DNA from: Bradyrhizobium sp. sBnM-33
Lineage (GTDB): Bacteria; Pseudomonadota; Alphaproteobacteria; Rhizobiales; Xanthobacteraceae
Direction: 5' to 3'
Assembly (NCBI RefSeq): GCF_032917945.1
Contig: NZ_CP136624.1
Location: 3,596,001-3,660,000, forward strand
Length of the DNA: 64,000 bases
Each line of letters opens with the position of its first letter. Position 1 is the first letter of the stretch. The notes beneath the pieces are model-generated. The model searched no databases. It worked only from the letters and a program-made list of their open reading frames with translations, and was not told where the DNA came from. This document shows, in pieces, positions 36,679 to 62,515 of the stretch. The translations under genes were made by a program, and so were the position numbers.

Positions 36679-38004
36679 TTAGAAATCCGCGACTTTGCCC
36701 CATGCCGATGCCGAGAACCGCCCCGGGCGATACGGCTCTGGATCAAACATAGGCTTCGCCCCGGTGACGAGGTCGGCGACCAGGTGACCGGCTCCCGGAC
36801 CGATGCCGAAGCCGTGCCCGGAAAAGCCGGCGGCCAGAATGAGGCCGGGCACCTTCTCCAACTCTCCTATGCCGGGCACACCGTCCGGGGTGCTGTCGAT
36901 ATAGCCAGCCCAGGCTGCTGCGATCTTTGTCTTGCGCAGTTCGGGTATGAGTTCGATTGCCCGGCGGTGGGTCAGTTTCACCGCAGCCGGATCGGGCGTT
37001 GGATCGAGAATGCGCATGTGTTCCATCGGGGTCGGCCCATCGATCCTCCAGCGCTTCAACGTCTCGTGGCCGGAACGAATTCCTTCGAGGCCGCCCGGGA
37101 GGAGGCTGTGCCAACGTTTCAAGAACATCGGCAGAAATTGCGGAGCGAAACGCAACTGCTGCGGGGTGACGTCCACGCGCCCACGTCCGCTGATCGCCAG
37201 AGTGTAGCCGCCATCGCTCCGGCGGGTGAGGGAGATGCTGGCGGTATGCAGGGCATCCGGCAGATCTTTGGCACCGGGAGAGACGGCCAGGATCGAAGAA
37301 CGGATCGAGGCTTGGGGGAAACGGATGCCGACCTGACGGCAGAAGGACGACGCCCATGCGCCCCCGGCAAGCACAGCGACCTTCGTCTTGATCGTTCCGC
37401 GCTCCGTGACAACGGCGCTCAATCGCCCGGCTTCCAATTCGATGCCCCGCGCGGCACAATTCTGATGAACCGTTCCGCCCAGCTTCAGGATCGCGGAAGC
37501 CACGGCCGGCGCGGCTTTGCCCGGATCGGCTGTCCCATCGGTGGGCGAAAAGACGCCACCCTTCCAGGCGCGTCCGGTTGCACGACCGCGCCCCGTCGCT
37601 CCGGCACTGTCCAGCACATGGGTCGTCACGCCGACCGTTCTGGCAAAATCGCACCAGCGCGCCCAGCGGACAAGCTCGGCCTCGTCATTGCTCAGGTACA
37701 AGAGACCGCAGCGGCGAAAGCCAGTATCTTCACCGCTCTCGGCGGCAAACTGCTCCCAGAGGTCGAGGCTCTTCATCGCCATCGGCAGTTCGCGGGCATC
37801 CCGGTTCTGCTGCCGGCACCAGCCCCAGTTGCGGCTCGACTGCTCCGCGCCGACCCTTCCCTTCTCTACCAGGGCGATCCGGAGGCCCCGCTTCGCAAGG
37901 TAATAGGCGGCAAACACGCCGACGATGCCGCCGCCAATCACCACCGCGTCGGCGGACGCGGGCAATTCGGGGGAGCTTTCGATGTGATGCAGCGGCGCGG
38001 GCAT
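36679..38004 (-). CDS. FAD-dependent D-amino-acid dehydrogenase/oxidase-type enzyme (DAO family)
   Basis: 441 residues. The dinucleotide motif is VVIGGGIVGVFAAYYLAKRG (G24-x-G26-x-x-G29), followed by QSSRNWGWCRQQ, the FAD-contacting segment in DadA-like proteins, and the closing GIGELEKVPGLILAAGFSGH. It should oxidise an amine or D-amino acid to an imine. No signal peptide, so cytoplasmic or inner-face bound. It is divergent from the Lrp-type regulator at 38221 with about 215 bp between, so it is a likely Lrp target and the left boundary of the catabolic cluster. Confidence 0.88.
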   Translation of the reverse strand: MPAPLHHIESSPELPASADAVVIGGGIVGVFAAYYLAKRGLRIALVEKGRVGAEQSSRNWGWCRQQNRDARELPMAMKSLDLWEQFAAESGEDTGFRRCGLLYLSNDEAELVRWARWCDFARTVGVTTHVLDSAGATGRGRATGRAWKGGVFSPTDGTADPGKAAPAVASAILKLGGTVHQNCAARGIELEAGRLSAVVTERGTIKTKVAVLAGGAWASSFCRQVGIRFPQASIRSSILAVSPGAKDLPDALHTASISLTRRSDGGYTLAISGRGRVDVTPQQLRFAPQFLPMFLKRWHSLLPGGLEGIRSGHETLKRWRIDGPTPMEHMRILDPTPDPAAVKLTHRRAIELIPELRKTKIAAAWAGYIDSTPDGVPGIGELEKVPGLILAAGFSGHGFGIGPGAGHLVADLVTGAKPMFDPEPYRPGRFSASAWGKVADF

Positions 38005-38220
38005 GGGTGTCTCCGACTGCCCTCAGTCTAGCGGCTTACTGAACACAAGCGCTGCCGGAAATCGCCACGTAACCGAACAATATTCTGCGGAGGACGGCAG
38101 GTGCAATGTATCCTGCTTTGCAGCGAGTTCTGCCGGCAATAGGCATTGCCGGGGAATGTGGTAAGATCGAGCGCAGCATATAATGCCGTAGCAGCGGCCA
38201 GCTTGAGAATCGACACAGCC

Positions 38221-38700
38221 GTGACGAAACTGGATCGGATCGACATCAAGATCCTGAACGAACTCCAGAAGAATGGACGCATCTCCAATGTGGAGCTTGC
38301 GGAATTGGTCAATCTGTCTCCGAGTCCATGTCTCATGCGTGTGAAGAAGTTGCAGGCAGAAGGCTATATTCAAGGCTACTCGGCTCAGATCGACGTCGGC
38401 AAGCTTGGGCAAACCTTAACCGTCTTCACCGAGATCACCTTGAGAAATCATCGCCAGACGGATTTTGCACGCTTCCTCTCGGTGGTCGAGAAGACCGACC
38501 AGATCATAGAATGTCATCTCGTCTCCGGTGGGTACGACTATCTCCTGAAGTTCGTGACTGCCGGTATCGAGGAATATCAGACCATCATGGAGCGGTTGAC
38601 TGACATGGATATCGGTATCGACAAGTATTTCAGCTTTGTCGTGCTGAAGTCGCCAATCGTAAAGGCTCACATGCCGCTGACCAGCCTGTTTCGCGTTTAG
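38221..38700 (+). CDS. Lrp/AsnC-family regulator
   Basis: About 159 residues from the GTG at 38221 (TKLDRIDIKILNELQKNGRI); earlier in-frame starts at 38146 or the TTG at 38203 would add a non-family extension. The N-terminal helix-turn-helix (NVELAELVNLSPSPCLMRVK) is followed by the RAM ligand domain (FARFLSVVEKTDQIIECHLV, then GGYDYLLKFVT). Lrp proteins sense amino acids. It is the only regulator in the catabolic cluster. Its stop overlaps the stop of the convergent ABC ATPase gene. Confidence 0.9.
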   Translation: MTKLDRIDIKILNELQKNGRISNVELAELVNLSPSPCLMRVKKLQAEGYIQGYSAQIDVGKLGQTLTVFTEITLRNHRQTDFARFLSVVEKTDQIIECHLVSGGYDYLLKFVTAGIEEYQTIMERLTDMDIGIDKYFSFVVLKSPIVKAHMPLTSLFRV

Positions 38701-40385
38701 TTGGCGAACGCTTGCCGCCGTTCAAAGGAAGCAATACGAGCGGACGAGGGATCCTGCTCGAGGCTGTCGAGCCAGTCCGGATCCAGCTTCGGTACCGACG
38801 AGAACAGCAGTTGCGAGTACGGATGCTTTGCCGCCTTGATTTCCGACGGCAATAGCTGCTCGACCTTCATTCCGCCGTACATCACGATGATCTCGTCGCA
38901 GATGGCCTTCACCACGGACAGGTCATGGCTGATGAAAATGTAGGAGATCCCGAGTTCGCGCTGCAGCTCTTTCAACAAATCGATGACCGCTGCCGCGACC
39001 ACGGTGTCGAGTGCCGAGGTGATCTCGTCGCACAGGATCAGCTTTGGATCGGCGGCGAGCGCTCGAGCGAAATTCACGCGCTGTTTCTGTCCGCCGGACA
39101 ACTCCGACGGTCGACGGCTGCGAACGGTGCGAGGCAGCTTCACCATGTCGAGCAACTCATCGATGCGAGTACTGCGCGCCCGGCCGTCCATGCGATGGTA
39201 GAACGCCATCGGGCGGCCCAGTATGTCTTCGACCAGCTTTGCCGGATTGAGCGCCGTATCGGCGTGCTGGAAGACGATCTGAATTTCCCGCAACTGATCG
39301 TGGCTGCGATCTCGCACTGAGCGACCGAGTTCCCGGCCATCGAAGGTCATGTGGCCTGCGGCTGCGGGCAGGACGCCGGCAATCGTGCGCGCCAGAGTGG
39401 ATTTGCCAGAGCCGGATTCGCCGATGATGCCGAGATTGCGGCCCTTCTCCAATATGAGGCTGATACCCTCGACAGCTCGCACAAGTGGCAGCCCATCTGA
39501 CTGAATCGGACCGTACCCGGCACTGATGTCCTTGAACTCGAGGAGCGGCTTCATCTCGTCAGGCTGCTCTTCCAGCACTTCCCGCGGGCGCGGCTCGAAC
39601 GCGGCGAGAAGCTCGCGGGTATAGGGATGTTTGGCTGCGGAGAGAATTTCAGCGGTCGAGCCGGTCTCCTGCACCTCGCCGCCCTTCAGGACTACAATTC
39701 GGTCGGCGATCTGCGAGACGACGGCAAGATCGTGCGAGACGTAGACGCCCGCAATGCCGGTCGCGCGCATGACCGATTTGAAAGCGCGCAGGACTTCAAT
39801 CTGGGTGGTTACGTCCAGGGCCGTGGTCGGCTCATCGAAGATGACGAGCTTGGGATCGCTTATCAGCGCCATCGCGGCTGCAAGCCGCTGCAACTGACCG
39901 CCGGAGACCTGATGCGGGTAGTGTTGGCCAATGGTCTCGGGGTTCGGCAAAGACAGCGCTTTGAACAGTTCGATGGCGCGTCGGCGCGCTTTTTCGGCCG
40001 GCATGAGACTATGGATGCGGGTAACCTCGATGACTTGATCGATGATTTTTGCCGATGGATTGAAGGCGGCGGCCGCACTTTGCGGAATATAGGCGATATC
40101 GGCGCCGCGCATTCCGGCCCGTTCCTTCTCGGAAAGTGACGCCATGTCTTTGCCGTTCACGAGAACCTGCCCACGGGAGATGCGGCATCCCGGGCGGCAA
40201 TAGCCCATCAGCGTGAGGGCAATCGTCGTTTTTCCCGAGCCGCTCTCGCCGATCAGGGCGACGATTTCGCCTTCGCCCACCTCCAGGGTAACGCGCTTGA
40301 TGATTTCCACCTTGCGGCCTGAATCGGTCGTCGCCTCAACCTCAAGGTCACGAATTTCGACCAGGTTGGACAATTTGGCCATCAT
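38697..40385 (-). CDS. Fused double ABC ATPase of a dipeptide-type importer (DppD-DppF fusion)
   Basis: 562 residues with two complete ATPase halves in one chain. The first has Walker A GESGSGKTT, signature VSGGQLQRL, Walker [12 protein letters not shown]; the second has GESGSGKST, LSGGQKQRV and LILCDEITSALD. Note the second Walker B ends DEI rather than DEP. Such fusions occur in glutathione (GsiA), peptide and opine importers. It overlaps the permease gene by four bases. Read last in the four-gene importer operon 43875 to 38697. Confidence 0.9.
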   Translation of the reverse strand: MMAKLSNLVEIRDLEVEATTDSGRKVEIIKRVTLEVGEGEIVALIGESGSGKTTIALTLMGYCRPGCRISRGQVLVNGKDMASLSEKERAGMRGADIAYIPQSAAAAFNPSAKIIDQVIEVTRIHSLMPAEKARRRAIELFKALSLPNPETIGQHYPHQVSGGQLQRLAAAMALISDPKLVIFDEPTTALDVTTQIEVLRAFKSVMRATGIAGVYVSHDLAVVSQIADRIVVLKGGEVQETGSTAEILSAAKHPYTRELLAAFEPRPREVLEEQPDEMKPLLEFKDISAGYGPIQSDGLPLVRAVEGISLILEKGRNLGIIGESGSGKSTLARTIAGVLPAAAGHMTFDGRELGRSVRDRSHDQLREIQIVFQHADTALNPAKLVEDILGRPMAFYHRMDGRARSTRIDELLDMVKLPRTVRSRRPSELSGGQKQRVNFARALAADPKLILCDEITSALDTVVAAAVIDLLKELQRELGISYIFISHDLSVVKAICDEIIVMYGGMKVEQLLPSEIKAAKHPYSQLLFSSVPKLDPDWLDSLEQDPSSARIASFERRQAFAN

Positions 40386-41233
40386 ACGCTCCTGTCTCTG
40401 ATCTTCTTCGGCAGGTTGTCGATCAGTAGATTGACGCTGATCGTAAGGCTGGCGATGGCCAGTGAGGGAACGATCACGGCAGGAGCACCGAACGGCAGTC
40501 CACCGATATTCTCACGCACCAGCGCCCCCCAGTCGGCTTGGGGCGGCTGCAATCCCAGTCCCAAGAAGGAGAGACCCGACAGAAGCAGCACTATGAACAC
40601 GAACCGCAAGCCCAGATCGGCCAGTATCGGCCGAATGATATTAGGCAGGATTTCCGAGCCGATCAGATAGAGGGTGCCTTCACCTCGAATGCGAGCGACC
40701 GTCATGAAATCCATCGTATTGATGTTGACGGCGAGCGCGCGCGAGAAACGGTACGCTCCCGGGATATAGATGACGGCAAGCGTGACGATCAGGACGGGCA
40801 CGGACGAGCCGACCGCGGCGACAACCAGCAGACCGAATAGCTTGCTCGGTATCGAACTCAAGGCATCCAGAAAGCGACTCAAGGCAGCGTCCAACCAGCC
40901 GCCGGAAACGGCGGCGGTCATTCCAAGAACCACGCCCGTGAAGCAGGAGATGGATACGGCTGCAAGGGAAATGCCGATGGTATAGCGCGCGCCCATGAGA
41001 ATGCGCGAAAGCATATCGCGCCCCAGGTAGTCGGACCCAAGCCACATGGTGTCGCTGATCGGACCGAAATATTCGACGTCGATGATTTCTCCCACCGGGT
41101 GGGGTATGATGTTCGGCGCAAGGATCGCTACCAGGGCCCAAGCCAGAATGACGGCAGACGACGCGATGCCGACGAGATTGAACCTGTAGCCGAAATGCGT
41201 TCTGACTTGCTCATGTACGGTATGTGCCGTCAT
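40382..41233 (-). CDS. Dipeptide-type ABC permease (DppC-like)
   Basis: 283 residues with an N-terminal helix and a DppC domain: PISDTMWLGSDYLGRDMLSR, then helices, and the EAA-like loop DFMTVARIRGEGTLYLIGSE, closing SGLSFLGLGLQPPQADWG. Partner of the DppB-like permease; the four-base overlaps on both sides show coupled translation. Confidence 0.9.
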   Translation of the reverse strand: MTAHTVHEQVRTHFGYRFNLVGIASSAVILAWALVAILAPNIIPHPVGEIIDVEYFGPISDTMWLGSDYLGRDMLSRILMGARYTIGISLAAVSISCFTGVVLGMTAAVSGGWLDAALSRFLDALSSIPSKLFGLLVVAAVGSSVPVLIVTLAVIYIPGAYRFSRALAVNINTMDFMTVARIRGEGTLYLIGSEILPNIIRPILADLGLRFVFIVLLLSGLSFLGLGLQPPQADWGALVRENIGGLPFGAPAVIVPSLAIASLTISVNLLIDNLPKKIRDRSV

Positions 41234-42180
41234 CGGATCCTCGGATTTGACAGGATCGCGACAATGTCCGCCGCCGTGGTCAACAGCAGATAGCCAAGGC
41301 AGAAGATCATTGCGCAGGTCTGGATCAGCGGAAGGTCGCGGGTCGCGACCGCGTCAACCATCAGTTTTGCGATGCCCGGATAGTTGAAGATCGTCTCAAC
41401 GATTATCACGCCGCCGATGAGGTATGACAGCGACAGCGCCACCGCATTGGCGATTGGGCCAAGCGCGTTCGGAAGGGCATGCTTGAGCACCATGCGCCCA
41501 CGCGACGCGCCCTTGAGAAGCGCCATCTCGACATAGGGCGTGTCGAGAGTCTCAATAACGGCAGCGCGCGTCATCCGGATCATTTGCGCCGACACCCCGA
41601 AAGTAAGTGTGATGACCGGCATGGAATAGATTTTCAGAGTATCGGCGAACGAATGCGCGTCGTTTGCGAAGGAGAGGGCGGGAAGCCATTTCAGGTACAC
41701 GGCGAAGAAGAGCACGGCGCAAGTCGCCACCATGAACTCCGGGACGGAAATGATCCCGATCAGGAGCACCGTTACAACGCGGTCGTATAGCGAACCGCGC
41801 AACACGGCGCTGGTGATGCCAAGTGTCAAAGAAATGGGCACAGCGAGCAGCGCCGTGATGCCGGCAAGTTTCATCGTGTTGACGAAACGATCACCGATCA
41901 GCGCCACAACCGGCATGCTGTTGGCATAGGACGTGCCGAATTCACCGCGGAGAAAGTCAAGCAACCAATGGATAAAACGAAGGACCGCCGGCTCATCCAG
42001 ATGCATGGCCCGCCGCAGCCCCTCGGCCGCTTCCGGTGTGGCGGCTTGTCCGAGCAGGATTGACGCGGTGTCGCCGGGCAGCAGGTTGGTTGCAAAGAAC
42101 ACCGCAAAGGAGACAATCAGCAATGTGATCATCGCCACGAAGAGCCTGCTCAGGATGAGATCGAGAACCCTGATATTCAT
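41230..42180 (-). CDS. Dipeptide-type ABC permease (DppB-like)
   Basis: 316 residues, starting with the typical LSRLFVAMITLLIVSFAVFF helix and FATNLLPGDTASILLG. The coupling loop is TPYVEMALLKGASRGRMVLK and the closing motif VIIVETIFNYPGIAKLMVDA. It is separated from the receptor gene by 84 bp that contain a hairpin. Confidence 0.9.
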   Translation of the reverse strand: MNIRVLDLILSRLFVAMITLLIVSFAVFFATNLLPGDTASILLGQAATPEAAEGLRRAMHLDEPAVLRFIHWLLDFLRGEFGTSYANSMPVVALIGDRFVNTMKLAGITALLAVPISLTLGITSAVLRGSLYDRVVTVLLIGIISVPEFMVATCAVLFFAVYLKWLPALSFANDAHSFADTLKIYSMPVITLTFGVSAQMIRMTRAAVIETLDTPYVEMALLKGASRGRMVLKHALPNALGPIANAVALSLSYLIGGVIIVETIFNYPGIAKLMVDAVATRDLPLIQTCAMIFCLGYLLLTTAADIVAILSNPRIR

Positions 42181-42264: not shown

Positions 42265-43875
42265 TCATGCCGCGAACCAGACGTGCTCGGCCATTGAATA
42301 GCCCATCATGCCGCCGAGTGGATTTATGTCCATGCCCTTGAGTTTGGCGGTCACGGCGTCGACGCCCGAGATGTAAGCAGGAATGATCGTTCCCGCCTCC
42401 TCGGCAATCATGGCCTGCAACTGGCCGTAGATGTCCTTGCGCTTGGTCTGGTAAAGCATTCCACGGGCTTCGACCAGCATGGCATCGAACTTTTCCGACC
42501 TGTAGCGGCTTTCATTCCACGGCGCCTGCGAGGCGTACAACAACGAGAACAAGATGTCCGGCGTCGGTCGATAGTTGATGTTGCCGAAGTGAATTGGCGC
42601 CTTGAGCCAGTAGTTGTTCCAATAGCCGTCCGAGGGGACACGCTGGACGTCCAATTTCAAGCCGATCGCGGCGGCGTTGGCCTGAAGCAGCATAGCCATA
42701 TCGATCGACGAGCCCGCCGCCTCGGAGGCGACCACCGGAATGGACTGCCCAAGAACGTCGGCCTTCTTGAAGTAAAACTTCGCCTGGTCGGGATCAAACG
42801 GCTTCGGCCGCAGATCGTTGTTGCGATATATGTTGCCGGGAAAGACCGGTTGGTCATTGCCGATGTCGCCGTAGCCCCGCAACGCCGATTTGAGAATCTG
42901 GTCGCGATTGACAAGATGCTTCATGCCGGTCACGAAGTCCTTGTTCTGCCCGGGCGCCATATCGAGGCGCATATTGAGATTTGTGTAGTGGTTCGAGCTC
43001 GATTTGGAGAGCACGAAGCCGGGCCGGCTTTCGACAAGCCGGACGGACCGGGGATTGATCGCGCCGGCGACATGGATGTCCCCCGAAAGCAGGGCATTGA
43101 CGCGGGCATTGTCTTCGTTGATGGCGAAGAATTCGAAAGTGTCCACGTGCGGGCCGCCGGCCTTCCAGTAGTTGCGGTTCTTGCGCATGACGGAGCGGAC
43201 GCCGGGCTTGAAGCTTTCGAGAACGAAGGCGCCGGTGCCATTGCCCTTCGAGAAGTCGGTCGTGCCGTCAACGACGATCATGAAATGGTGCAGCGCCAGG
43301 ATCGTCGGCAGGTCGGCGTTGGGGGCGGCGAGTGTGATTTCGACGGTGAGATCGTCGATGGCCTTGAGATCGGATATCTGCTTGGCGATGGCGTTGACCT
43401 TTGATCCGATATTGGGGTCGAGATGGCGTTTCAGCGAAAAGATCACGTCCGCGGACGTGAGCGACTTTCCGTCGTGAAAGACAACGCCCTTTCGGAGCTT
43501 GACGGTCCAGGTTTTGGCGTCGGCGCTATCAATGCGCTCCGCCAATTCCATTTGCGTCTGACCGGATTTGTCGAGGACGGAGAGGCGGTTATAAAGGGCG
43601 CAGCAGCGCGAATAATCCGTCGAGTTCGACGCTTTGGCCGGATCGAGGGTGTCCGCCGTCGACGAAGTAAAGCCCGCTACCTTCAGATGCCCTCCGGCCA
43701 CCGGCGTTGCCGCGACCGCATCCGAGGCGCGCCCGAGCATGACGGTGCCGGCCGACATTGCCATGCCACCCGCCAACAACATGTGAAGGAGTTCGCGACG
43801 TGTCGCGCCGCGACGAACAGCATTTTCCAGCATCGCGTCATCGGAATTGGCCCAATTGGTGATCTTGCTGTTCAT
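42265..43875 (-). CDS. Dipeptide-type ABC binding protein, probable Tat substrate
   Basis: 536 residues. The long N-terminal segment has twin arginines before a hydrophobic stretch (GATRRELLHMLLAGGMAMSA) and ends AVAATPVAGG, so export by Tat is likely. The receptor body follows cluster C proteins: TLDPAKASNSTDYSRCCALY, then KGVVFHDGKSLTSADVIFSL. The ligand may be a peptide, amine conjugate or opine. First gene of the importer operon; the aminotransferase gene upstream on the same strand ends 325 bp earlier. Confidence 0.9.
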   Translation of the reverse strand: MNSKITNWANSDDAMLENAVRRGATRRELLHMLLAGGMAMSAGTVMLGRASDAVAATPVAGGHLKVAGFTSSTADTLDPAKASNSTDYSRCCALYNRLSVLDKSGQTQMELAERIDSADAKTWTVKLRKGVVFHDGKSLTSADVIFSLKRHLDPNIGSKVNAIAKQISDLKAIDDLTVEITLAAPNADLPTILALHHFMIVVDGTTDFSKGNGTGAFVLESFKPGVRSVMRKNRNYWKAGGPHVDTFEFFAINEDNARVNALLSGDIHVAGAINPRSVRLVESRPGFVLSKSSSNHYTNLNMRLDMAPGQNKDFVTGMKHLVNRDQILKSALRGYGDIGNDQPVFPGNIYRNNDLRPKPFDPDQAKFYFKKADVLGQSIPVVASEAAGSSIDMAMLLQANAAAIGLKLDVQRVPSDGYWNNYWLKAPIHFGNINYRPTPDILFSLLYASQAPWNESRYRSEKFDAMLVEARGMLYQTKRKDIYGQLQAMIAEEAGTIIPAYISGVDAVTAKLKGMDINPLGGMMGYSMAEHVWFAA

Positions 43876-44200: not shown

Positions 44201-45574
44201 TCACGGCAGCGCCCGCCGCACATCCGGATCGTCCAAGGTCTGATCGAGGGTCTTGCGCGTGCGCTCGATCATCGCGTCGATTTCGCTTTCGGTGCAGCAA
44301 AGCGGCGGGGCATAGCCGATGACGCCCTGGGCGAAGGCGCGTACGACGAGGCCGTTCTCCCAGGCGCGGTCAAATATCCGCCTCGACGGATCGGCGGCTG
44401 CCGGCAGAGGGATTTTTTTCTCCTTGTCTACCACGAGTTCGATGGCCGCGAGCATGCCGCGGCCACGCACGTCGCCGACCAAAGGATGATCGCGCAGGCT
44501 TTTGAGGCCGGCCATCAGACGCCGGCCGGCCCTGACGCCGTTGTCAAGAAGCCCGTCTTCATAGAGTTTCAGGACCGCAAGCCCGACCGCCGCGCTGACC
44601 GGATGGCCGGAATAGGTCTGGCCGTGACCGACGGCAGCGTTTCCGGCGCCGTCGGCGATGACATCGTACACTTTGTCGGACATAAACACCGCACCCATGG
44701 GGGCGTAGCCCGACGTAAGGCCCTTTGCGGTCGTCATGAAATCCGGAACGATGTCGTCCTCCGAGCAGGCGAACAGCGGACCGGTTCGACCGAAGCCGGT
44801 GATGACCTCATCCGCAATAAAGAGGATGCCATGGCGACTACAGAGATCGCGCAGCGCCTTGATCCAGCCTCGCGGCGGCACGATGACGCCACCGGAGCCT
44901 TGAATCGGCTCGGCATAGAAAGCCGCGATCCGATCCGCGCCGATGGCCTCGATCTTCGCCTCGAGTGCCGCAAGCGATGACGCGATGATGGCCGTCGCAT
45001 CCTCCCCGACAGGATTGCGATAGGGATGGGGGGAGGGGATCTTGTGCTGCCAGTCGTAGGGCACGCCGAAACCGGCGTGGAAGGCGGGCAGCGCGGTCAG
45101 GCCCGCGCCGACCGTCGAGGATCCGTGGTAACCTTGTTCGATCGAAATGAACTGGTCCCGCCGCGGCTCGCCCTTGGCATGCCAGTAATACCTGATGAAG
45201 CGCACCGTGCTGTCCACGGCATCCGATCCTCCAAGCGAGAAATAGACGTGGTTGAGGTCTCCCGGCGCGCGTTGGGCGAGTTCGGCGGCCAAGCGGATCG
45301 CGGGTTCCGACCCCAGACCGAAATAGCCTGTCGCATAGGCCAGCTCCCGCATCTGCCGGGCGGCGGCCTGGACGATGCTCTCGTGACCGTAGCCGGCGTT
45401 GACACACCATAGCCCTGCGAAACCGTCGAGAAGCTGGCGGCCCGTCGCATCGGTGACGGTAGCGCCGCTTGCGGACTTCAGCACGCGGACGCCGTGCTTC
45501 TCGTGGCCGCGATATGAGGCGACCGGATGGATCAGATGGGCGCGATCGAGTTCGATCAGGGAATTGGCGAGCAT
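44201..45574 (-). CDS. Class III omega-aminotransferase
   Basis: 457 residues, PLP fold type I. Landmarks are GLWCVNAGYGHESIV (substrate pocket), SLGGSDAVDS, QGYHGSST, IADEVITGFGRTG (PLP-pyridine aspartate) and the Schiff-base lysine in TTAKGLTSGYAPMGAV. It transfers the distal amino group of omega-amino acids or amines such as GABA, beta-alanine or putrescine-type compounds to pyruvate or 2-oxoglutarate. It is 15 bp downstream of the first GNAT gene and in the same direction, so they form one unit. Confidence 0.92.
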   Translation of the reverse strand: MLANSLIELDRAHLIHPVASYRGHEKHGVRVLKSASGATVTDATGRQLLDGFAGLWCVNAGYGHESIVQAAARQMRELAYATGYFGLGSEPAIRLAAELAQRAPGDLNHVYFSLGGSDAVDSTVRFIRYYWHAKGEPRRDQFISIEQGYHGSSTVGAGLTALPAFHAGFGVPYDWQHKIPSPHPYRNPVGEDATAIIASSLAALEAKIEAIGADRIAAFYAEPIQGSGGVIVPPRGWIKALRDLCSRHGILFIADEVITGFGRTGPLFACSEDDIVPDFMTTAKGLTSGYAPMGAVFMSDKVYDVIADGAGNAAVGHGQTYSGHPVSAAVGLAVLKLYEDGLLDNGVRAGRRLMAGLKSLRDHPLVGDVRGRGMLAAIELVVDKEKKIPLPAAADPSRRIFDRAWENGLVVRAFAQGVIGYAPPLCCTESEIDAMIERTRKTLDQTLDDPDVRRALP

Positions 45575-54841: not shown

Positions 54842-55954
54842 ATGAAGGTTGGTGTACCCAGAGAGATCAAGACGCACGAATACCGCGTTGGTCTTACGCC
54901 GGGAGCCGTTCGCGAATACGTGGCAGCCGGGCACAGCGTCGTGGTCGAGACCAATGCCGGCGCCGGCATCGGCGCGGCGGACGACAGCTACCGCAAGGCC
55001 GGTGCGGTTATTCTGGACTCTGCTCGCGAGGTGTTTGCGTCCAGCCAGATGATCGTAAAGGTCAAGGAGCCCCAAGCCTCCGAATGGTCGCAACTGCGGG
55101 AAGACCAGATCCTCTTCACATATCTGCATTTGGCGCCAGATCCCGACCAGGCCAAAGGCCTCCTGGATGCCGGATGTGCGGCGATCGCCTACGAGACCGT
55201 GACGGACGCGAATGGCGGCCTGCCATTGCTTGCGCCGATGAGCGAGGTGGCGGGCAGGCTTGCGATCGAAGCGGCTGGCGCGGCACTGCGACGGCATGCG
55301 GGAGGCCGGGGCCTGTTGATAGGAGGCGTGCCGGGTGTCCAACCGGCGCGTATCGTGGTGATCGGAGGCGGAGTCGTCGGGACGCATGCTGCGCGCATGG
55401 CGGTTGGCCTGGGCGCCGAGGTCACCATTCTAGACCGATCGATAGGTCGTCTCCGCGAGCTGGATGAACTGTTTGAGGGGCGTGTTCGCACCAGGTTCTC
55501 GACGATCGACACTGTTGAGGAGGAGGCATTTGCCGCAGACGTCGTGATTGGCGCCGTGCTTGTGCCGGGAGCGAGCGCGCCGAAACTGATCTGCCGAAGT
55601 ATGTTGAGTTCGATGCGCAAGGGGTGCGTGATCGTGGACGTCGCGATCGACCAAGGGGGTTGCTTTGAGACGTCGCACCCGACCACGCACGCTGATCCCA
55701 CCTACGAGGTGGGGGGCGTCATCCACTACTGCGTCGCCAACATGCCGGGTGCCGTTCCACTCACCTCCAGCCAGGCACTGAACAATGCCACGCTGCCTTT
55801 TGGCTTGGCACTCGCCAACAAGGGATTTTCGGCCGCACTCGAAAATCTGCATTTGCGCGCAGGTCTGAATGTCTACCGAGGCCGGCTAACTTGCGAACCG
55901 GTGGCCCGGAGCCTCGACATGCCATTCTCGCCAATCGAAAGGGCGGCGGCATGA
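54842..55954 (+). CDS. ald: Alanine dehydrogenase
   Basis: 370 residues. All four catalytic residues fall at the positions known from Bacillus and Mycobacterium enzymes: R15 in THEYRVGLTP, K75 in VKVKEP, H96 in TYLHLAPD and D270 in VDVAIDQGG. NAD loop IGGGVVGTHAARMAVGLGA. It interconverts L-alanine and pyruvate plus ammonia with NAD. In this cluster it would recycle the alanine made when an omega-aminotransferase uses pyruvate as acceptor. Ribosome site AGGGAGA before the ATG at 54842. Confidence 0.93.
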   Translation: MKVGVPREIKTHEYRVGLTPGAVREYVAAGHSVVVETNAGAGIGAADDSYRKAGAVILDSAREVFASSQMIVKVKEPQASEWSQLREDQILFTYLHLAPDPDQAKGLLDAGCAAIAYETVTDANGGLPLLAPMSEVAGRLAIEAAGAALRRHAGGRGLLIGGVPGVQPARIVVIGGGVVGTHAARMAVGLGAEVTILDRSIGRLRELDELFEGRVRTRFSTIDTVEEEAFAADVVIGAVLVPGASAPKLICRSMLSSMRKGCVIVDVAIDQGGCFETSHPTTHADPTYEVGGVIHYCVANMPGAVPLTSSQALNNATLPFGLALANKGFSAALENLHLRAGLNVYRGRLTCEPVARSLDMPFSPIERAAA

Positions 55955-56214: not shown

Positions 56215-56332
56215 CGTATCGCGTCCGTGACGCAACCGCATACGGCAGCACAAGCCGTCATAGAAAACATCCGGCGCTACCGCGCTGGAAAAAAATCCGA
56301 TCGGCCTTGTCGATCGAACACTCGGCTACTAA
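56215..56332 (+). pseudogene. C-terminal remnant of a second GhrA-type reductase
   Basis: Reads RIASVTQPHTAAQAVIEN and IRRYRAG, then after a run of seven A (56289-56295) continues in the next frame as PIGLVDRTLGY and a stop. This parallels the end of the intact gene ([30 protein letters not shown]). The rest of the gene is missing, so it is the scar of a deleted paralogue just before the cupin gene. Confidence 0.8.
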
Positions 56333-56346
56333 CCAGGATTAATGCC

Positions 56347-56703
56347 ATGTCACTTCTGATTACTATCGACACCAATCCGGACTTCGCACCAAAGAACGCC
56401 TTGCCTGCTCCGGAACGACTCATTTCGGGCAATCCATCCTTCAAGACCTGGGCGCAGGACGTTTCGAAAGGCGAGAAGGTGCTAACCGGCGTCTGGGAAG
56501 CAACGCCCGGCGAGACCCATTCGATCAAGGGCACTACCTACGAGTTTTGCCACATCATCTCGGGTCTTATCGAAATTGAGGAAAAGGATGGTGAGACGAA
56601 GACTTACCGCGCCGGCGACAGCTTTGTGATGAAACCGGGCTTTGTCGGCGTCTGGCGCACGATCCAGACCGTGCGAAAGATCTACGTCTGCGCTTATGAC
56701 TGA
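56347..56703 (+). CDS. Small cupin (DUF861-type)
   Basis: 118 residues. It contains a single cupin barrel: GVWEATPGETHSIKGTTYEF, CHIISGLIEIEEKDGE and RAGDSFVMKPGFVGVWRT. The metal-binding histidine positions are only partly kept. Relatives often accompany PuuB-like oxidases and aminotransferases in rhizobial amine-catabolism clusters; roles proposed are sensing or small-molecule binding. The ATG at 56347 lies 14 bp after the GhrA remnant, which keeps the order reductase then cupin. Confidence 0.85.
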   Translation: MSLLITIDTNPDFAPKNALPAPERLISGNPSFKTWAQDVSKGEKVLTGVWEATPGETHSIKGTTYEFCHIISGLIEIEEKDGETKTYRAGDSFVMKPGFVGVWRTIQTVRKIYVCAYD

Positions 56704-57163: not shown

Positions 57164-58035
57164 ATGGCAACCGCAGCTCACCAGGCCGGAGATCGCCAGA
57201 ATGAAGACGTGGTCCTGGTTCCTTTCGCGAGAGCGCATCTGGAAGGCGCCGTGAAGCTCTCGCAGGAGATGTCTTGGCCCTATCGGGTCGAGGATTGGGA
57301 TTTCGCGCTGCAGTTGGGCCATGGCTTTGTTCTGCAGTGCGCCGGTGTGGTGATCGGGACCGCGGTCTGGTGGCCGTACGGCGAGACCCATGCTTCCGCC
57401 GGGATGATCATCGTCGCGAAAGCCGCTCAAGGCCGCGGCTACGGGGCGCAGCTCATGGATGCGTTGCTGGCGTCGGCGCATCCACGGACCATTGTGCTCA
57501 ATTCGACGGCCGAAGGCTTGGCGCTTTACCAGCGCCGCGCTTCGTCCCCATCGGGGTCATCCACCAGCATCAAGGAATTCCCAGGAAACGCTATGAGGCG
57601 CCGCGGCCGTGCCTCGTCAGGGCAATGGCTCCATCCGATTTCGAGGCGATCACACGCCTCGATCGGCAGGCCACAGGTTGGGCGAGGCGACCGCTGCTGG
57701 ATCGGCTCGTCCAGAGCGGTGACGGCTATGTCCTGCTGCGTGACGGCATACCCCGCGGCTACGCCATCTCCCGCCGTTTCGGCCGCGGGTATGTCATCGG
57801 TCCTGTGGTCGCCGAAAGCCCGACCGATGCGCGCGCATTGATCGAGGCCGCGCTCGCGCGCCTCGGGAGTGTTTTCGTCCGGATCGATACCTCTACCACC
57901 CCGCAGCTCGGGGAGTGGCTCGAAGGCATCGGCCTGCAGCCGGTCGGCGACGCCACCACCATGGTCTTCGGGACGCAGGTGCCATCGACCGGGCTGGCGC
58001 GCATGTTCGCGATCGCCAACCAGTCATTCGGCTAG
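57164..58035 (+). pseudogene. Two-domain GNAT acetyltransferase, paralogue 3, frameshifted
   Basis: The N-terminal domain (SWPYRVEDWDFALQLG, acetyl-CoA loop Q-G-R-G-Y-G) runs in one frame to GLALYQR near 57540. The rest (FVPIGVIHQHQG, then RQATGWARRPLLDRL, GRGYVIGPVVAES and MFAIANQSFG) is in the next. One missing base near 57540, in CGCCGCGCTTC, explains it; paralogue 1 has GLPLYKKLGF at the same place. Total length would be about 290 residues. The following PLP-enzyme gene uses a ribosome site that overlaps this stop. Otherwise intact, so a sequencing error is possible. Confidence 0.85.
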
Positions 58036-58046
58036 GAGACATCGAG

Positions 58047-59240
58047 ATGCTGCGTTTAGAGATGCACGGAACGGATATCCCGAACGCCGGACCCGTCGAG
58101 GCGGCCACGACGGTCGGCGCGTTGGCGACGCCGGCCCTCCTGCTCGACAAGGACCGGCTGGATCGCAATCTCGCCCGTCTGTCCTCTCGTATGGCCGCGC
58201 GAGGCATCGTCCTGCGTCCCCATATGAAAACCGCGAAATCCATCGAGGTCGCCCGACGCGCCTATCTGTCCGGGCCCGGGCCGATCACCGTCTCCACGTT
58301 GGCGGAGGCGGAGTACTTCGCGCGGCATGGTTTTCGGGACATGACTTATGCCGTGGGCGTGGCACCACACACCGCTGAGAGGGCGATGCGTCTCCGGAAA
58401 GTCGGCGTTGACCTTAAGATGCTGCTCGATTCGCCCGAACAGGCGACGATGCTGGGTGAGGCTGGCCGCGCCGCTGCTGTGACGCCATCCGCCTTCATCG
58501 AGATCGACTGCGACAGCCACCGCGGCGGTCTGACCGCCACCGATCCCAAGCTCATCGCCGTCGCGGTCGCCTTGGCCGAGGCCGGCGTCAAGCTCGCCGG
58601 CATTCTCACCCATGCCGGCGAATCCTACAGCCTTTGCACGTCCGATGCCCTCATCGCGGCTGCGGAGAACGAAAGGGCCGTGGCTGTGGCCGCCGCGGAG
58701 ACGTTGCGGGCGGCGGGGCATGAATGCCTGGTCGTAAGTGTCGGTTCGACGCCGACCGCCCATTTCGCCGAAGACCTGACCGGCGTCACGGAGATGCGGG
58801 CCGGTGTGTACATGTTCTTCGATCTGGTGATGCACGGTATCGGTGTCTGCACCGCCGACGACATCGCGATCTCGGTTCTCACCACCGTCATCGGAACGAA
58901 GCCGGAGAAGGGCTGGATTTTGGTCGATGCGGGCTGGATGGCCCTGTCGCGTGATCGCGGCACCGCGGCGCAGCGGGTTGACCAGGGTTACGGTCTCGTC
59001 TGCGATATGTCCGGCAAACTCTACCCAGACCTGATCGTCGCGCAGGCAAGCCAGGAGCACGGCATCCTCGCCATCAGATCCAGATCGGCTGCAACCCTGC
59101 CGGATCTGCCGATCGGCACGAAGGTCAGGATCCTGCCCAATCACGCCTGCGCGACGGCGTCACAGCACGAGCTGTACAATGTCGTCTCCGCGGGAAGCGA
59201 CGCAATCGAAGCTCAGTGGCCGCGAATGCGCGGCTGGTAG
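58047..59240 (+). CDS. D-serine dehydratase/D-threonine aldolase-type PLP enzyme
   Basis: 397 residues, fold type III (alanine racemase-like N-terminal barrel). PLP lysine K61 in RPHMKTAKS; the C-terminal metal pair is H366-x-C368 in PNHACATAS. The His/Cys pair is the zinc site of chicken D-serine dehydratase and D-threo-3-hydroxyaspartate dehydratase, whereas D-threonine aldolases have His/Asp, so dehydratase activity on a D-3-hydroxy amino acid is more likely. ATG with a TAGGAGAC ribosome site. It would give a 2-oxo acid plus ammonia. Followed 72 bp later by the flavoenzyme gene. Confidence 0.87.
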   Translation: MLRLEMHGTDIPNAGPVEAATTVGALATPALLLDKDRLDRNLARLSSRMAARGIVLRPHMKTAKSIEVARRAYLSGPGPITVSTLAEAEYFARHGFRDMTYAVGVAPHTAERAMRLRKVGVDLKMLLDSPEQATMLGEAGRAAAVTPSAFIEIDCDSHRGGLTATDPKLIAVAVALAEAGVKLAGILTHAGESYSLCTSDALIAAAENERAVAVAAAETLRAAGHECLVVSVGSTPTAHFAEDLTGVTEMRAGVYMFFDLVMHGIGVCTADDIAISVLTTVIGTKPEKGWILVDAGWMALSRDRGTAAQRVDQGYGLVCDMSGKLYPDLIVAQASQEHGILAIRSRSAATLPDLPIGTKVRILPNHACATASQHELYNVVSAGSDAIEAQWPRMRGW

Positions 59241-59312: not shown

Positions 59313-60590
59313 ATGAAGCTCACATCCTATTGGTTGAACACGTCGGAGCCATTCAGGAGCGCCACCGCAGGACCGGTGCAAGGCACCTGCGACGTTGCGG
59401 TGATCGGCGGCGGCTTGACCGGTTCTTCGGCCGCCCTGGCTCTCGCCAAGAAGGGCGCGCGCGTCGTGCTCCTCGAAGCCGAGACGATCGGGCACGCGGC
59501 GTCCGGCCGGAACGGCGGCATGTGCAACAACGGGTTCGCCCAGGACTACGGCACGCTCTCGACCAGGCTCGGTAAGGAAGTCGCCGACCGGCTCTACCGG
59601 GCCTTCGACGCCGGGGTCGATACGGTCGAGCGCCTGGTGGCGGAAGAGCAGATCGATTGCAGCTTCGCCCGCAACGGCAAGATCAAGCTTGCGGCCAAAC
59701 CTGAGCACTATGACAAGCTGGCGCGCAGCCAGGAATTGCTCGCCGCCAATGTCGATCCCGACACGACGATGGTGAGCCGTGCCGATCTGGCCAACGAAGT
59801 GGGATCGGAGCGCTATTACGGCGGGCTGATCTACCGCAAGAGCGCCGGCATGCATGTCGGACGCTTCGTCCGCCGTCTTGGGGAAGCGGCGGCGCGGCGC
59901 GGCGTCGAGATCCACGAGCATACGCCGATGATGGGCCTGCTACCCGCCGCCGGCGGAGGTCACGAGATCGAAACACCCAAGGGCCGGCTTCGGGCCTCGC
60001 AGGTTCTGTTGGCGAGCGGCATCTCGCATGCGGGGCCGCTGGGTTGGATTCGCCGCCGGATCGTGCCGGTCGGCGCCTTCCTGATCGTCACCGAGCCCTT
60101 GCCGATCGCGACTCTCGATCGGCTTCTGCCGCGCCGCCGAATGGCCGTCGATACAAAGAACCTGGTCAACTACTTCCGAACCACGCCAGACAATCGGCTA
60201 CTCTTCGGGGGACGCGCCCGCTTCGCTATCTCCAACCCGAGCTCAGACGAGAAGAGCGGTGCGATCCTGCAGGCTGCGCTGCACGACGTCTTTCCGGAGC
60301 TTCGCGCCGTGCGTATCGACTATTGTTGGGGCGGGATGGTCGACATGACGCGCGACCGGCTGCCACGCGCCGGCGAACGCAACGGCATCTACTATTCCAT
60401 GGGCTACAGCGGCCACGGCACCCAGATGTCGACCCTGATGGGGACGATCATGGCGGAAGTCATGGACGGGCGCACCGAGCTCAATCCCTGGAAGGACTTC
60501 GCCTGGCCAGCCATTCCGGGTCATCTCGGTCCTCCCTGGTTCCTTCCCCTGGTCGGCGCCTATTACCGGATCAAGGATCGCTTCCAATGA
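59313..60590 (+). CDS. PuuB-type FAD amine oxidase, paralogue 2
   Basis: 425 residues, alignable end to end with the protein at 47414: both begin with KxxSYW, keep VIGGGLTGSSAALALAKKG (G32-x-G34-x-x-G37), SGRNGGMCNNG, FGGRARFAI and end PGHLGPPWFLPLVGAYYR. It should oxidise an amine or N-acyl amine. Its stop overlaps the start of an aldehyde dehydrogenase by ATGA, so the amine oxidase and aldehyde dehydrogenase are made together and probably act in sequence. Confidence 0.9.
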   Translation: MKLTSYWLNTSEPFRSATAGPVQGTCDVAVIGGGLTGSSAALALAKKGARVVLLEAETIGHAASGRNGGMCNNGFAQDYGTLSTRLGKEVADRLYRAFDAGVDTVERLVAEEQIDCSFARNGKIKLAAKPEHYDKLARSQELLAANVDPDTTMVSRADLANEVGSERYYGGLIYRKSAGMHVGRFVRRLGEAAARRGVEIHEHTPMMGLLPAAGGGHEIETPKGRLRASQVLLASGISHAGPLGWIRRRIVPVGAFLIVTEPLPIATLDRLLPRRRMAVDTKNLVNYFRTTPDNRLLFGGRARFAISNPSSDEKSGAILQAALHDVFPELRAVRIDYCWGGMVDMTRDRLPRAGERNGIYYSMGYSGHGTQMSTLMGTIMAEVMDGRTELNPWKDFAWPAIPGHLGPPWFLPLVGAYYRIKDRFQ

Positions 60591-62044
60591 CCTCGGCCGT
60601 TCGACACCTGACGGAAGCCGGCTTCCTCGGCAAATTCTACATCGACGGAGAATGGCGGAAGCCGACCGGATCGGCGACGGCGGTCGTCGTCAACCCGGCG
60701 ACCGAGCAGCCAATCGCCGAAGTCGCGCTCGGCAATGACGAGGATGTGGAATACGCGGTCGCCGCGGCCAGACGAGCCTTCGCGGGCTGGTCTTGCAAGC
60801 CGGCTGCGGAGCGGGCAGCGCTGCTCGACCGGATCCATGGTTTGATCCTCAAGCGGCTGGAACTTTTCGCGCTGGCACTCACGAGCGAGATGGGGGCCGC
60901 TATCACCTATGCGCGCCGCGCCCAGGTGCCGCTGGCCGCCGAACATATCCGCGTCGCGCGTGACAATCTCGCGACCTATTCTTTCATCAGCCCGCGCGGC
61001 AGCACCGCCATCATGCGCGAGGCAATCGGCGTCTGTGGTCTCATCACCCCCTGGAACTGGCCTCTCTATCAAATCACAGCCAAGGTCGGTCCGGCGCTCG
61101 CGGCGGGCTGCACGGTGGTGCTGAAGCCGAGCGAATTGTCGCTCTTGAGCGCCTTGCTGTTCGCCGAGGTGATGGACGATGCCGGTTGTCCGCCCGGCGT
61201 ATTCAATCTCGTCAACGGGACAGGTCCCGTAGTGGGGACCGGTCTGGCGTCGCATCCGCAGATCGACATGATCTCGATCACGGGCTCGACCCGTGCGGGG
61301 GTTCTCGTTGCGCAAGCGGCGGCGCCCACCGTCAAACGCGTCGCCCAGGAACTCGGCGGCAAGTCGCCGAATATCATTCTGCCGGATGCCGAGCTGAGCC
61401 GGGCCGTTCCACTCGGCGTCGGCGCTGCCTTCCGCAATCTCGGCCAATCCTGCAGCGCACCGACGCGTATGCTTGTTTCTCGCTCACAGATGGCGAAGGT
61501 CGAAGTTCTGGCCGCGGCGACCGCTTCCGAACTGGTGGTCGGCGATCCGCTTGCGGAAAGCACGACCCATGGTCCGATCGCCAACCGGCCGCAGTTCGAG
61601 CGTATCCAGGCCATGATCGGCGTCGGTCTGGAGGAAGGCGCCAAGCTTGTCATTGGCGGGCCGGGGCGGCCCGACAACCTTCAGGTCGGCCTCTACGCGC
61701 GGCCGACGATCTTCTCGAACGTCCGTCGCGACATGAGAATTGCGCACGAGGAGATCTTCGGCCCGGTGCTGTCGATCATTCCCTACGATACGGTCGACGA
61801 GGCGGTCGAGATCGCCAACGACACGGTCTACGGCCTCGGCGCCCATGTGCAGGGCGCGGATGTGGAGACACTTCGGGGGGTGGCAGGGCAGATCCGGTCC
61901 GGTCAGGTCCATCTCAACTATCCCGACTGGGACCCGAACGCACCCTTTGGCGGATACAAGCATTCCGGCAACGGCCGGGAATATGGCCTCGAGGGCATGG
62001 AGGAATATCTCGAGACCAAGGCCGTTCTCGGATTTTACCGATGA
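60587..62044 (+). CDS. Aldehyde dehydrogenase coupled to the amine oxidase
   Basis: 485 residues from the ATG at 60587 (the frame is open further upstream but that is antisense to no gene and inside the oxidase in another phase). Catalytic glutamate in QELGGKSPNIIL and cysteine in NLGQSCSAPTR; coenzyme segment ITPWNWPLYQITAKVGPALA. The NWPLYQ and SCSAPTR variants differ from the GabD-like enzyme at 48756, so the two dehydrogenases probably act on different aldehydes. Ends with the expected GxEYGLEGMEEYLETKAV. Confidence 0.92.
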   Translation: MTSAVRHLTEAGFLGKFYIDGEWRKPTGSATAVVVNPATEQPIAEVALGNDEDVEYAVAAARRAFAGWSCKPAAERAALLDRIHGLILKRLELFALALTSEMGAAITYARRAQVPLAAEHIRVARDNLATYSFISPRGSTAIMREAIGVCGLITPWNWPLYQITAKVGPALAAGCTVVLKPSELSLLSALLFAEVMDDAGCPPGVFNLVNGTGPVVGTGLASHPQIDMISITGSTRAGVLVAQAAAPTVKRVAQELGGKSPNIILPDAELSRAVPLGVGAAFRNLGQSCSAPTRMLVSRSQMAKVEVLAAATASELVVGDPLAESTTHGPIANRPQFERIQAMIGVGLEEGAKLVIGGPGRPDNLQVGLYARPTIFSNVRRDMRIAHEEIFGPVLSIIPYDTVDEAVEIANDTVYGLGAHVQGADVETLRGVAGQIRSGQVHLNYPDWDPNAPFGGYKHSGNGREYGLEGMEEYLETKAVLGFYR

Positions 62045-62131: not shown

Positions 62132-62338
62132 GTGGTGACATTCATCTCGGAAAGCGACTCGACCCGCCTCATCTCGCATGAGTCGGCCTTCGGGGCCGTG
62201 CGACAGGCGCTCGTCGCCGGCGGCTTCCGCCGACGCGAACGTGTTTCCGGCCGTGATCGCACACGCGTCGGCTCCGCGGAACACCTTCTCGCTCAAGTCG
62301 GGTTCGACGCCTGAGTTGGTGGGCCTTAAGGTCGGCTC
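62132..62338 (+). pseudogene. Ornithine cyclodeaminase/mu-crystallin-family N-terminal remnant
   Basis: Starting at a GTG near 62132, VTFISESDSTRLISHESA and FGAVRQALVA read in one frame; after a shift near 62220 the next frame gives ANVFPAVIAHASAPRNTF, SLKSGSTPELVGLKVGS. This is the N-terminal third of the family that includes iminosuccinate and ketimine reductases. It then runs into unrelated sequence and the glutamate dehydrogenase fragment. Confidence 0.78.
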
Positions 62339-62372
62339 ATCTGGCCCGACAACCCTGCCAAACAGGCAATCG

Positions 62373-62515
62373 ATGACTCGCCAGACAATCTATCGGGGAC
62401 CAGTGTTCGAAATGGCGCGCCGCCAGTTCGACGGCGTCGCCGACCTGCTGAACCTTTCATTCGACGAGCGCGACAGGCTGCTCTATCCGAAGCGCGCGAT
62501 GGCCGTCACATCGGG
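62373..62515 (+). pseudogene. Glu/Leu-type dehydrogenase N-terminal remnant
   Basis: About 47 codons (GPVFEMARRQFDGVADLL, RDRLLYPKRAMAVT) match the start of NAD(P)-dependent glutamate/leucine dehydrogenases. The substrate lysine and nucleotide domain are absent. It directly follows the ornithine-cyclodeaminase remnant, so a deletion has joined or removed two amino-acid-dehydrogenase genes at the end of the cluster. Confidence 0.7.

Follow-up and report, generated by a model that had tools for sequence, protein, structure and literature searches.

Gene content of the region

A stretch of 64,000 nucleotides from Bradyrhizobium sp. sBnM-33 (contig NZ_CP136624.1, positions 3,596,001 to 3,660,000; hereafter the window, with coordinates counted from its first nucleotide) carries, between 36.7 and 62.0 kb, genes for import, acetylation, oxidation and transamination that a first-pass annotation had read as a single super-cluster of about 26 kb for acetylation-dependent amine catabolism. 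Comparative analyses show instead that the region consists of two separately conserved modules: module A (36.7-54.8 kb) and module B (57.2-62.0 kb), with an alanine dehydrogenase gene, the tail of a GhrA gene and a displaced cupin gene at the junction between them (about 54.8-57.2 kb). By sequence comparison, module A is an eroded copy of a conserved 18-gene cluster that is complete on the Sinorhizobium meliloti plasmid pSymA. The probable role of the cluster is to take up a plant amino compound and catabolise it by way of acetylated intermediates. The genes of module A, with their identity to the S. meliloti counterparts, are as follows.

36679..38004 (-): DAO0, flavin adenine dinucleotide (FAD) amine/amino-acid oxidase; PF01266, 246 bits; 78%
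38146..38700 (+): Lrp/AsnC regulator; HTH_AsnC-type and AsnC_trans_reg; 91%
38697..40385 (-): OppDF-type fused ATP-binding cassette (ABC) ATPase; NCBIfam oligopeptide/nickel ATPases; 77%
40382..41233 (-): OppC-type permease; family model; 80%
41230..42180 (-): OppB-type permease; family model; 80%
42265..43875 (-): family-5 substrate-binding protein (SBP); SBP_bac_5; 73%
44201..45574 (-): class III aminotransferase (AT), PRK05965 subfamily; NF004625, 861.6 bits (cut-off 729); 81%
45589..46428 (-): GNAT1, two-domain acetyltransferase, 14 bp from AT; PF18014 and PF00583; 61%
46731..47399 (+): HAD1, HAD-family hydrolase; HAD_2/Hydrolase; 87%
47414..48688 (+): DAO1, PuuB/pipecolate-oxidase-like flavoenzyme, 14 bp after HAD1; PF01266; 78%
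48756..50213 (-): succinic semialdehyde dehydrogenase (SSADH)-family aldehyde dehydrogenase; TIGR01780, 667.7 bits (cut-off 646.35); 81%
50228..51271 (-): TTC, tartrate/D-malate dehydrogenase family, 14 bp from SSADH; TIGR02089, 576.7 bits (cut-off 470.4); 84%
51578..52525 (-): GhrA-type D-2-hydroxyacid dehydrogenase; 2-Hacid_dh_C; 75%
52518..53699 (-): M20 deacylase, acetylornithine-deacetylase type, overlapping the GhrA gene by 8 bp; TIGR01892, 451.6 bits (cut-off 297.7); 65%
53857..54795 (+): GNAT2, two-domain acetyltransferase at the edge of module A; PF18014; 59% to S. meliloti GNAT2

Much of the earlier gene inventory held. Family models recovered the peptide-type importer (38697-43875), the M20 deacylase, the aminotransferase, the Lrp regulator and two different aldehyde dehydrogenases (ALDHs; the SSADH-type enzyme and a second one at 60587-62044 in module B). 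The nearest PDB relatives of the SBP are 5u4o (best match), YliB, AgaA and dipeptide-binding and nickel-binding proteins, and a polyamine:pyruvate transaminase ranks third among the PDB matches of the AT. An open reading frame (ORF) at 46869-47324, considered as an Lrp gene, was rejected with zero family matches. All three of the proposed DAO/PuuB-type flavoenzymes belong to the DAO family, but only DAO1 and DAO2 (the latter in module B) are PuuB-like, with 31-32% identity to Escherichia coli PuuB (32% for DAO1), whereas DAO0 has just 23% and is nearest by sequence in the PDB to an L-amino acid deaminase (E 5.6e-54). DAO1 scores 188 bits against NF050086, under the cut-off of 600, and the GhrA-type enzyme scores 207 bits against NF012013, under the cut-off of 403. 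The match behind a proposed additional DAO remnant is weak: 25 residues at 40%, with E values of 0.55 and 2.1. Similarly, two of the three proposed two-domain GNATs are intact, each with an N-terminal GNAT domain followed by Acetyltransf_18, but the third (GNAT3, module B) is frameshifted. A genome scan with one GNAT sequence returned 13 loci, all of them short or distant matches (28-48% in the best segment). The two genes that most constrain the chemistry, HAD1 and TTC, had not been listed, and neither had the GhrA-type enzyme, a DSD1-type enzyme, the cupin, an ALDH3 remnant and the GhrA tail.

Conservation of module A

Of 397 genomes of the order, 36 (the Bradyrhizobium genome included) have a HAD1 match at E <= 1e-30; they fall in 18 of 141 genera. 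For comparison, 38 loci were fetched around HAD1 (36 of about 20 kb and two of 13 kb), covering 39 of the 40 matches outside the Bradyrhizobium genome and leaving out one 36% match in genome G160. On the plasmid pSymA of S. meliloti ml45 (L007), all 18 genes are present in the order GNAT2, M20 (argE), GhrA, cupin, ALDH3, tartrate dehydrogenase, SSADH, DAO1, HAD1, GNAT1, aminotransferase, HAD2, SBP, OppB, OppC, OppDF, Lrp and DAO0. The window has the same genes from DAO0 to M20 in the same order (73-91% identity from DAO0 to GhrA, GNAT1 excepted), except that HAD2 and ALDH3 are missing. The pSymA cluster apparently corresponds to SMa1850-SMa1869, as matched by gene names and order. In a published S. 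meliloti table, SMa1850 (oxidoreductase, 1.10), SMa1855 (aminotransferase, 1.96), SMa1864 (ABC ATPase, 1.87) and SMa1869 (amino acid oxidase, 3.12) stand in one class; the numbers in brackets are values from one column of that table (PMC12542648).

The number of the 38 loci in which each gene was found by tblastn at E <= 1e-12 (and, in brackets, at 50% identity or more) is given below. The loci share descent, which makes the counts non-independent, and genes lying further out than the cut at about 20 kb go uncounted.

HAD1: (38)
OppDF: 31 (24)
GNAT1: 31 (19)
SBP: 30 (25)
AT: 30 (28)
DAO1: 30 (28)
OppB: 28 (24)
OppC: 27 (24)
ALDH3: 26 (26)
HAD2: 24 (22)
Lrp: 22 (21)
TTC: 22 (22)
cupin: 22 (21)
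GhrA: 22 (22)
M20: 22 (21)
SSADH: 21 (20)
DAO0: 20 (11)
GNAT2: 17 (10)

Fifteen loci hold HAD1, DAO1/2, GNAT, AT, SSADH, SBP, TTC, GhrA and M20 all together. Co-occurrence of the GNAT, PuuB-like oxidase, ALDH, M20, AT and SSADH genes without puuA, which had been suggested as a synteny check, was found in the relatives. Several genes also recur as direct neighbours, defined as lying on the same strand with a gap under 250 bp: AT-GNAT1 and DAO1-HAD1 in 26 loci each, ALDH3-TTC in 19, SSADH-TTC in 18 and GhrA-M20 in 12. GhrA and M20 occur jointly in 19 loci and either one alone in 3 and 3, and GNAT1 lies directly next to M20 in four.

Relatives of GNAT1 were found in 363 plasmid records, including 139 from Rhizobium and 77 from Sinorhizobium. 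In the five rhizobial plasmid stretches in which the neighbourhood was viewed (L005-L008 and L031), gene content and order are conserved among S. meliloti, Mesorhizobium and Rhizobium, although the L008 stretch is without the HAD2-to-DAO0 half and the L005 stretch without GNAT2, M20, GhrA and the cupin. Additionally, a compact one-strand cluster is present on a conjugative Klebsiella pneumoniae plasmid (L086), with SSADH, ALDH, HAD1 (54%), DAO1 (52%), SBP and Opp genes, DAO0 (45%), GNAT (36%), GhrA (48%), an M20 peptidase, a class III (GabT-type) aminotransferase (30% to that of the window) and Lrp; 16 Klebsiella plasmid records match GNAT1 and 16 match HAD2. A Burkholderia cepacia plasmid has HAD1, oxidases, Opp genes, GNAT, GhrA, AT (62%), Lrp and SSADH. 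Therefore, the grouping of module A is beyond chance, as the same genes, largely in the same order, recur in other genomes. HAD1 copies were also seen in a different setting, beside ornithine-cyclodeaminase-like and threonine-dehydratase-like genes whose identity to their S. meliloti counterparts is 88-91% (L053 and L055; L073 is a weaker case).

The first-pass annotation had stressed that no gamma-glutamyl ligase or PuuD-type hydrolase was visible, and had named a ligase immediately outside the window as one finding that would speak against its proposal. No such ligase is present, including in the 15 kb past the right end of the window. E. coli PuuA and PuuD (tblastn, E <= 1e-5) had no match in the window itself, nor in any of 46 further loci (the 38 fetched loci, the 15 kb past the right end (L042) and seven others), the PuuD search being confined to these and not extended to the rest of the genome. 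A glutamine-synthetase-type ligase was found in none of the 38 homologous loci, and the four PF00120 (glutamine synthetase-family) genes of the genome, at 0.72, 5.09, 5.19 and 5.88 Mb, are more than 1.4 Mb away from the window at 3.60-3.66 Mb.

Erosion of the copy, module B and surrounding genes

The following remnants and additional genes were found in and to the right of module A.

51302..51425 (-): ALDH3 remnant, scraps of both ends of a gene that is intact in relatives
54842..55954 (+): alanine dehydrogenase, outside the conserved cluster; TIGR00518, 482.4 bits (cut-off 391.85)
56218..56329 (+): remnant of a second GhrA gene (its tail); two short C-terminal pieces at 79% and 82%, E 4e-7
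56344..56703 (+): module A cupin, displaced; Cupin_3; 68% to the S. meliloti cupin
57164..58035 (+): GNAT3 (module B), frameshifted, with N- and C-terminal halves in two frames
58047..59240 (+): DSD1-type pyridoxal phosphate enzyme (module B); D-ser_dehydrat and Ala_racemase_N; PDB D-threo-3-hydroxyaspartate dehydratase, E 2e-117
59313..60590 (+): DAO2, PuuB-like flavoenzyme (module B); PF01266; 53% to DAO1, 32% to PuuB
60587..62044 (+): ALDH2 (module B); PF00171; 37% to PuuC; intact

The ALDH3 scraps match the S. meliloti ALDH in its residues 3-39 (68%, E 2e-10) and 469-482 (71%, E 0.84). Comparison with the HAD2 gene of the relatives found no trace of it in the window. The alanine dehydrogenase gene, which had been counted as part of the super-cluster, was confirmed as a gene, but it lies outside the conserved cluster and was matched in none of the 38 related loci.

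Module B (57164-62044: GNAT3, DSD1, DAO2 and ALDH2) is intact in genome G009 (L044) at 82-94% identity, and the intact GNAT3 relative there is 79-82% identical. The order GNAT-DSD1-oxidase-ALDH is also carried by a Bosea plasmid (L028). Other relatives of module B (L027 and L030) adjoin genes for threonine synthase, homoserine kinase, a phosphotransferase and a class III aminotransferase, a setting that looks as if a homoserine-like product were fed to threonine. With HAD2 and ALDH3 lost and module B adjoining, either the ALDH of module B stands in for the missing one or the copy is decaying. Elsewhere in the same genome, a HAD2-like hydrolase gene at 6739684-6740379 (45% to S. meliloti HAD2, 35% to the PDB entry 3smv) adjoins a DAO-family oxidase and an ABC ATPase.

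Further from the two modules, a second peptide-type ABC importer is apparent at 14992-20471 (-), comprising SBP_bac_5, two oligo_HPY ATPases and two permease-sized ORFs between them. A gene for a PhaC-type polyhydroxybutyrate polymerase lies at 21744-23528 (-). A search for one palindromic motif gave no match. A DDE transposase-like ORF at 28191-29108 (+), and an IS110 transposase at 17863-18783 (+) of the stretch past the right end of the window (L042), are signs of a mobile neighbourhood.

Predicted chemistry and alternative explanations

The pairing of SSADH with TTC suggests how the pathway may end. In an Acinetobacter carnitine operon, a malic semialdehyde dehydrogenase (62% to GabD) is reported to yield D-malate, which an orthologue of DmlA decarboxylates to pyruvate (PMC11353897). 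An exit via malic semialdehyde and D-malate to pyruvate is thus favoured by the adjacency of SSADH and TTC, a pair proven in Acinetobacter carnitine catabolism. The two systems are alike in encoding SSADH-family and DmlA/tartrate-dehydrogenase-family genes together; they differ in that no carnitine monooxygenase was recognised among the window genes examined, and in that amine entry in module A is predicted to be by oxidase and transaminase. The malic semialdehyde dehydrogenase 8s33 carries the SSADH name in the PDB, and because the SSADH of the window is similar to both GabD and 8s33, malic and succinic semialdehyde specificity cannot be told apart by sequence.

The HAD hydrolases point to a possible class of substrate. 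By sequence, the nearest PDB entries to HAD1 are 8hp5 (E 4e-21) and then 3smv/8ywo/9v14 (E 6.4e-18), which carry both the name (S)-2-haloacid dehalogenase and the name L-azetidine-2-carboxylate hydrolase. The structure model of HAD1 is poor (mean predicted local distance difference test score 65.7). S. meliloti HAD2 is closer to 3smv (38% identity, E 7e-41) than HAD1 is (28-30%). A tree was built from 50 rows (every second fetched HAD1 or HAD2 row plus the named ones) and rooted on L-DEX, a single long branch; the azetidine-hydrolase group (98/95) and the HAD2 group (100/96) share one clade (99/93). In comparison with the L-azetidine-2-carboxylate hydrolases (Pseudomonas A2C, 3smv/8ywo/9v14 and AzhA), the HAD2 of the relatives therefore lies in a sister clade, and HAD1 and HAD2 have the same active-site pattern at the columns checked, at the identities just given. 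The sister position of HAD2 is suggestive of a substrate of the azetidine or diaminobutyrate kind, for example nicotianamine. A HAD-type hydrolysis with inversion would give a D-configured acid fitting a D-malate dehydrogenase. The product of azetidine hydrolase is reported to be 2-hydroxy-4-aminobutyrate, which is transaminated next (PMC8016842).

We tentatively favour, at confidence short of even, the reading that module A catabolises an amino compound which is imported and contains C4 amino-acid units, with the conversion of D-malate to pyruvate as the end of the route. Each reaction in this route, and the order of the reactions, is predicted. The Opp-family importer, under the Lrp/AsnC regulator, would bring the compound in; the flavin oxidases DAO0 and DAO1 would cut or deaminate C-N bonds; and a HAD-family hydrolase would open or hydrolyse a C-N centre. 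GNAT would acetylate the terminal amine, preventing cyclisation of a keto or aldehyde intermediate (a 4-amino-2-oxo acid or an amino-aldehyde), GhrA would reduce the 2-oxo acid to a D-2-hydroxy acid, and M20 would take the acetyl group off. The AT would then transaminate 4-amino-2-hydroxybutyrate (or an equivalent) to malic semialdehyde, the SSADH-family enzyme would oxidise this to D-malate, and TTC would decarboxylate D-malate to pyruvate. The recurrence of GNAT1 (31 of 38 loci), M20 (22) and AT (30) with the cluster supports acetylation and deacetylation as a property of the cluster, from whose recurring genes we infer the acetylation chemistry itself.

A more specific version, in which module A serves nicotianamine and its relatives among the plant metal chelators, the mugineic acids, is unlikely as it stands. 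In these chelators, C-N bonds link an azetidine-2-carboxylate ring with aminobutyrate or hydroxybutyrate units into chains. They could accordingly call on an importer, two C-N-cleaving oxidases, an azetidine-opening HAD and acetyl protection of the diaminobutyrate unit, and each C4 unit might pass via GhrA, AT, SSADH and TTC to D-malate and then pyruvate.

Several observations weigh against the proposed D-malate route or its azetidine substrate. The SSADH of the window scores 613 bits with E. coli GabD (3jz4) and 576 with the malic semialdehyde dehydrogenase 8s33. HAD2, the sister of azetidine hydrolase, is missing here, and the HAD1 of the window lies apart from the azetidine-hydrolase clade (87/93), so that it is a relative and not a member of these enzymes. 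TTC is unmatched in the Klebsiella and B. cepacia stretches viewed, and M20 and ALDH3 are unmatched in that of B. cepacia. Additionally, in 40 azetidine-hydrolase-family loci (40 of 56 matches, 49-61% to 3smv, with 13 of the 40 shorter than 20 kb), searched with thresholds of 45% identity and 60% query coverage, AT and TTC were each found in none, SSADH in 7 and Lrp in 2, whereas in 20 control loci (20 kb each, taken from the same genomes) SSADH occurred once and AT, TTC and Lrp not at all. The proposition that azetidine-hydrolase genes generally lie beside AT, SSADH and TTC thus failed, and the tie of the azetidine HAD to the downstream route is not general. In 20 other HAD2-like loci, a DAO gene is near in 15, SSADH in 4 and TTC in 2. 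In favour of the route, the downstream set does appear in two of five hand-picked annotated plasmid loci: that of Leisingera holds AT (59%), an azetidine-hydrolase relative (55% to 3smv), Lrp (57%), SSADH (64%) and TTC (53%), and that of B. ambifaria an azetidine-hydrolase relative, a HAD, Lrp (59%), SSADH (55%) and AT (61%), with TTC absent. In Thioclava the hydrolase lies with Lrp and an Opp importer, in Roseomonas with Lrp and an annotated FAD oxidoreductase, and in Caballeronia with none of these.

A serious rival, although on balance a rather doubtful one, assigns the same genes to other substrates, as the first-pass annotation had done by analogy with the E. coli Puu pathway. GNAT would acetylate a diamine, DAO1 would oxidise the other end and a PuuC-like ALDH would make an N-acetyl amino acid; M20 would then deacetylate it, and AT and SSADH would send GABA or a homologue to succinate. 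The sequence likeness to Puu is one-to-one, with a PuuB-like oxidase (DAO1, 31-32%), a PuuC-like ALDH (ALDH3 in relatives, 40%, and ALDH2 here), a PuuE-like aminotransferase (31-32%) and SSADH, while GNATs and M20 stand in the place of the absent PuuA and PuuD. The recurrence of GNAT, M20, AT and SSADH together and the higher bit score of SSADH with GabD also fit this route. However, it gives no role to the conserved HAD1/HAD2, TTC, GhrA and DAO0, and its ALDH3 is deleted in the window. Beyond what Puu has, the cluster carries a HAD, a D-malate-type dehydrogenase, GhrA, a second oxidase and an Opp-family importer. That the importer is of the peptide/nickel Opp family and not of the PotABCD type is a weak point against it, as Sap transporters, which belong to the Opp family, carry annotations for putrescine transport. 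Of the acetylation-based chain originally proposed, the recurrence of GNAT1, M20 and AT stands, but the chain leaves HAD1, TTC, GhrA and DAO0 unused.

It is also unlikely that, irrespective of the role of the cluster in other genomes, the copy in the window is a non-functional remnant undergoing decay. The ALDH3 scraps, the lost HAD2, the displaced cupin, the duplicated GhrA tail and the frameshifted GNAT3 are all as expected of decay. In contrast, the reading frame is uninterrupted along the whole length of each of the fourteen module A genes between DAO0 and M20 (both included), thirteen of them at 65-91% and GNAT1 at 61% to S. meliloti, ALDH2 is intact, and the genome has the HAD2-like gene with a DAO gene at 6.74 Mb.

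Less probable again is that the GNATs are detoxifiers: they would acetylate a toxic analogue of proline, for instance azetidine-2-carboxylate (a reaction known from yeast Mpr1), and M20 would later release it for the hydrolase. GNATs and HADs do co-occur in the module A loci, and in Aspergillus the Mpr1 orthologue NgnA is reported to assist the HAD hydrolase AzhA against azetidine-2-carboxylate (PMC8016842), but the two oxidases and the Opp importer would be left unexplained. Degradation of xenobiotic haloacids by true 2-haloacid dehalogenases, as the database names "haloacid dehalogenase type II" and "2-haloacid dehalogenase" would have it, is very improbable: in a 69-row alignment, the Asp, Thr, Asn, Lys and Asp that we take to be catalytic in L-DEX YL are kept in 41 HAD1 and 24 HAD2 rows, but its Arg41 and Asn177 are in none of them, and all have Ser at the Asn177 column, as in the azetidine hydrolase 3smv.

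Among the papers listed by literature searches on the SMa locus tags, nicotianamine (with catabolism, rhizobia or azetidine), mugineic acid catabolism, acetylated polyamines and 4-amino-2-hydroxybutyrate or malic semialdehyde, none, judging by titles and the beginnings of abstracts, deals with the cluster, and no substrate or function was assigned to it in the literature searched. In a term search of the main text of rhizoSMASH (PMC12462448), azetidine and nicotianamine never occur.

Overall, the gene identities, order, pairs and conservation, the ligase absence and the remnants are established. Judged by its sequence, module A is a real, conserved catabolic cluster, worn in this genome and beside a second small module. 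All 18 of its genes are carried by S. meliloti pSymA; the cluster recurs on further rhizobial plasmids, and a Klebsiella plasmid has a compact version. We hypothesise a ligase-free, acetylation-linked catabolism. Should the D-malate exit be true, catabolism by the cluster would follow a logic that needs no ligase, with acetylation in the part that glutamylation plays in Puu. Should nicotianamine or an azetidine amino acid be the substrate, the cluster would provide genes by which bacteria use a plant metal chelator that is widespread; no such genes were found in the literature searched, and, in the case of nicotianamine, rhizobia may feed on their host's own metal carrier.

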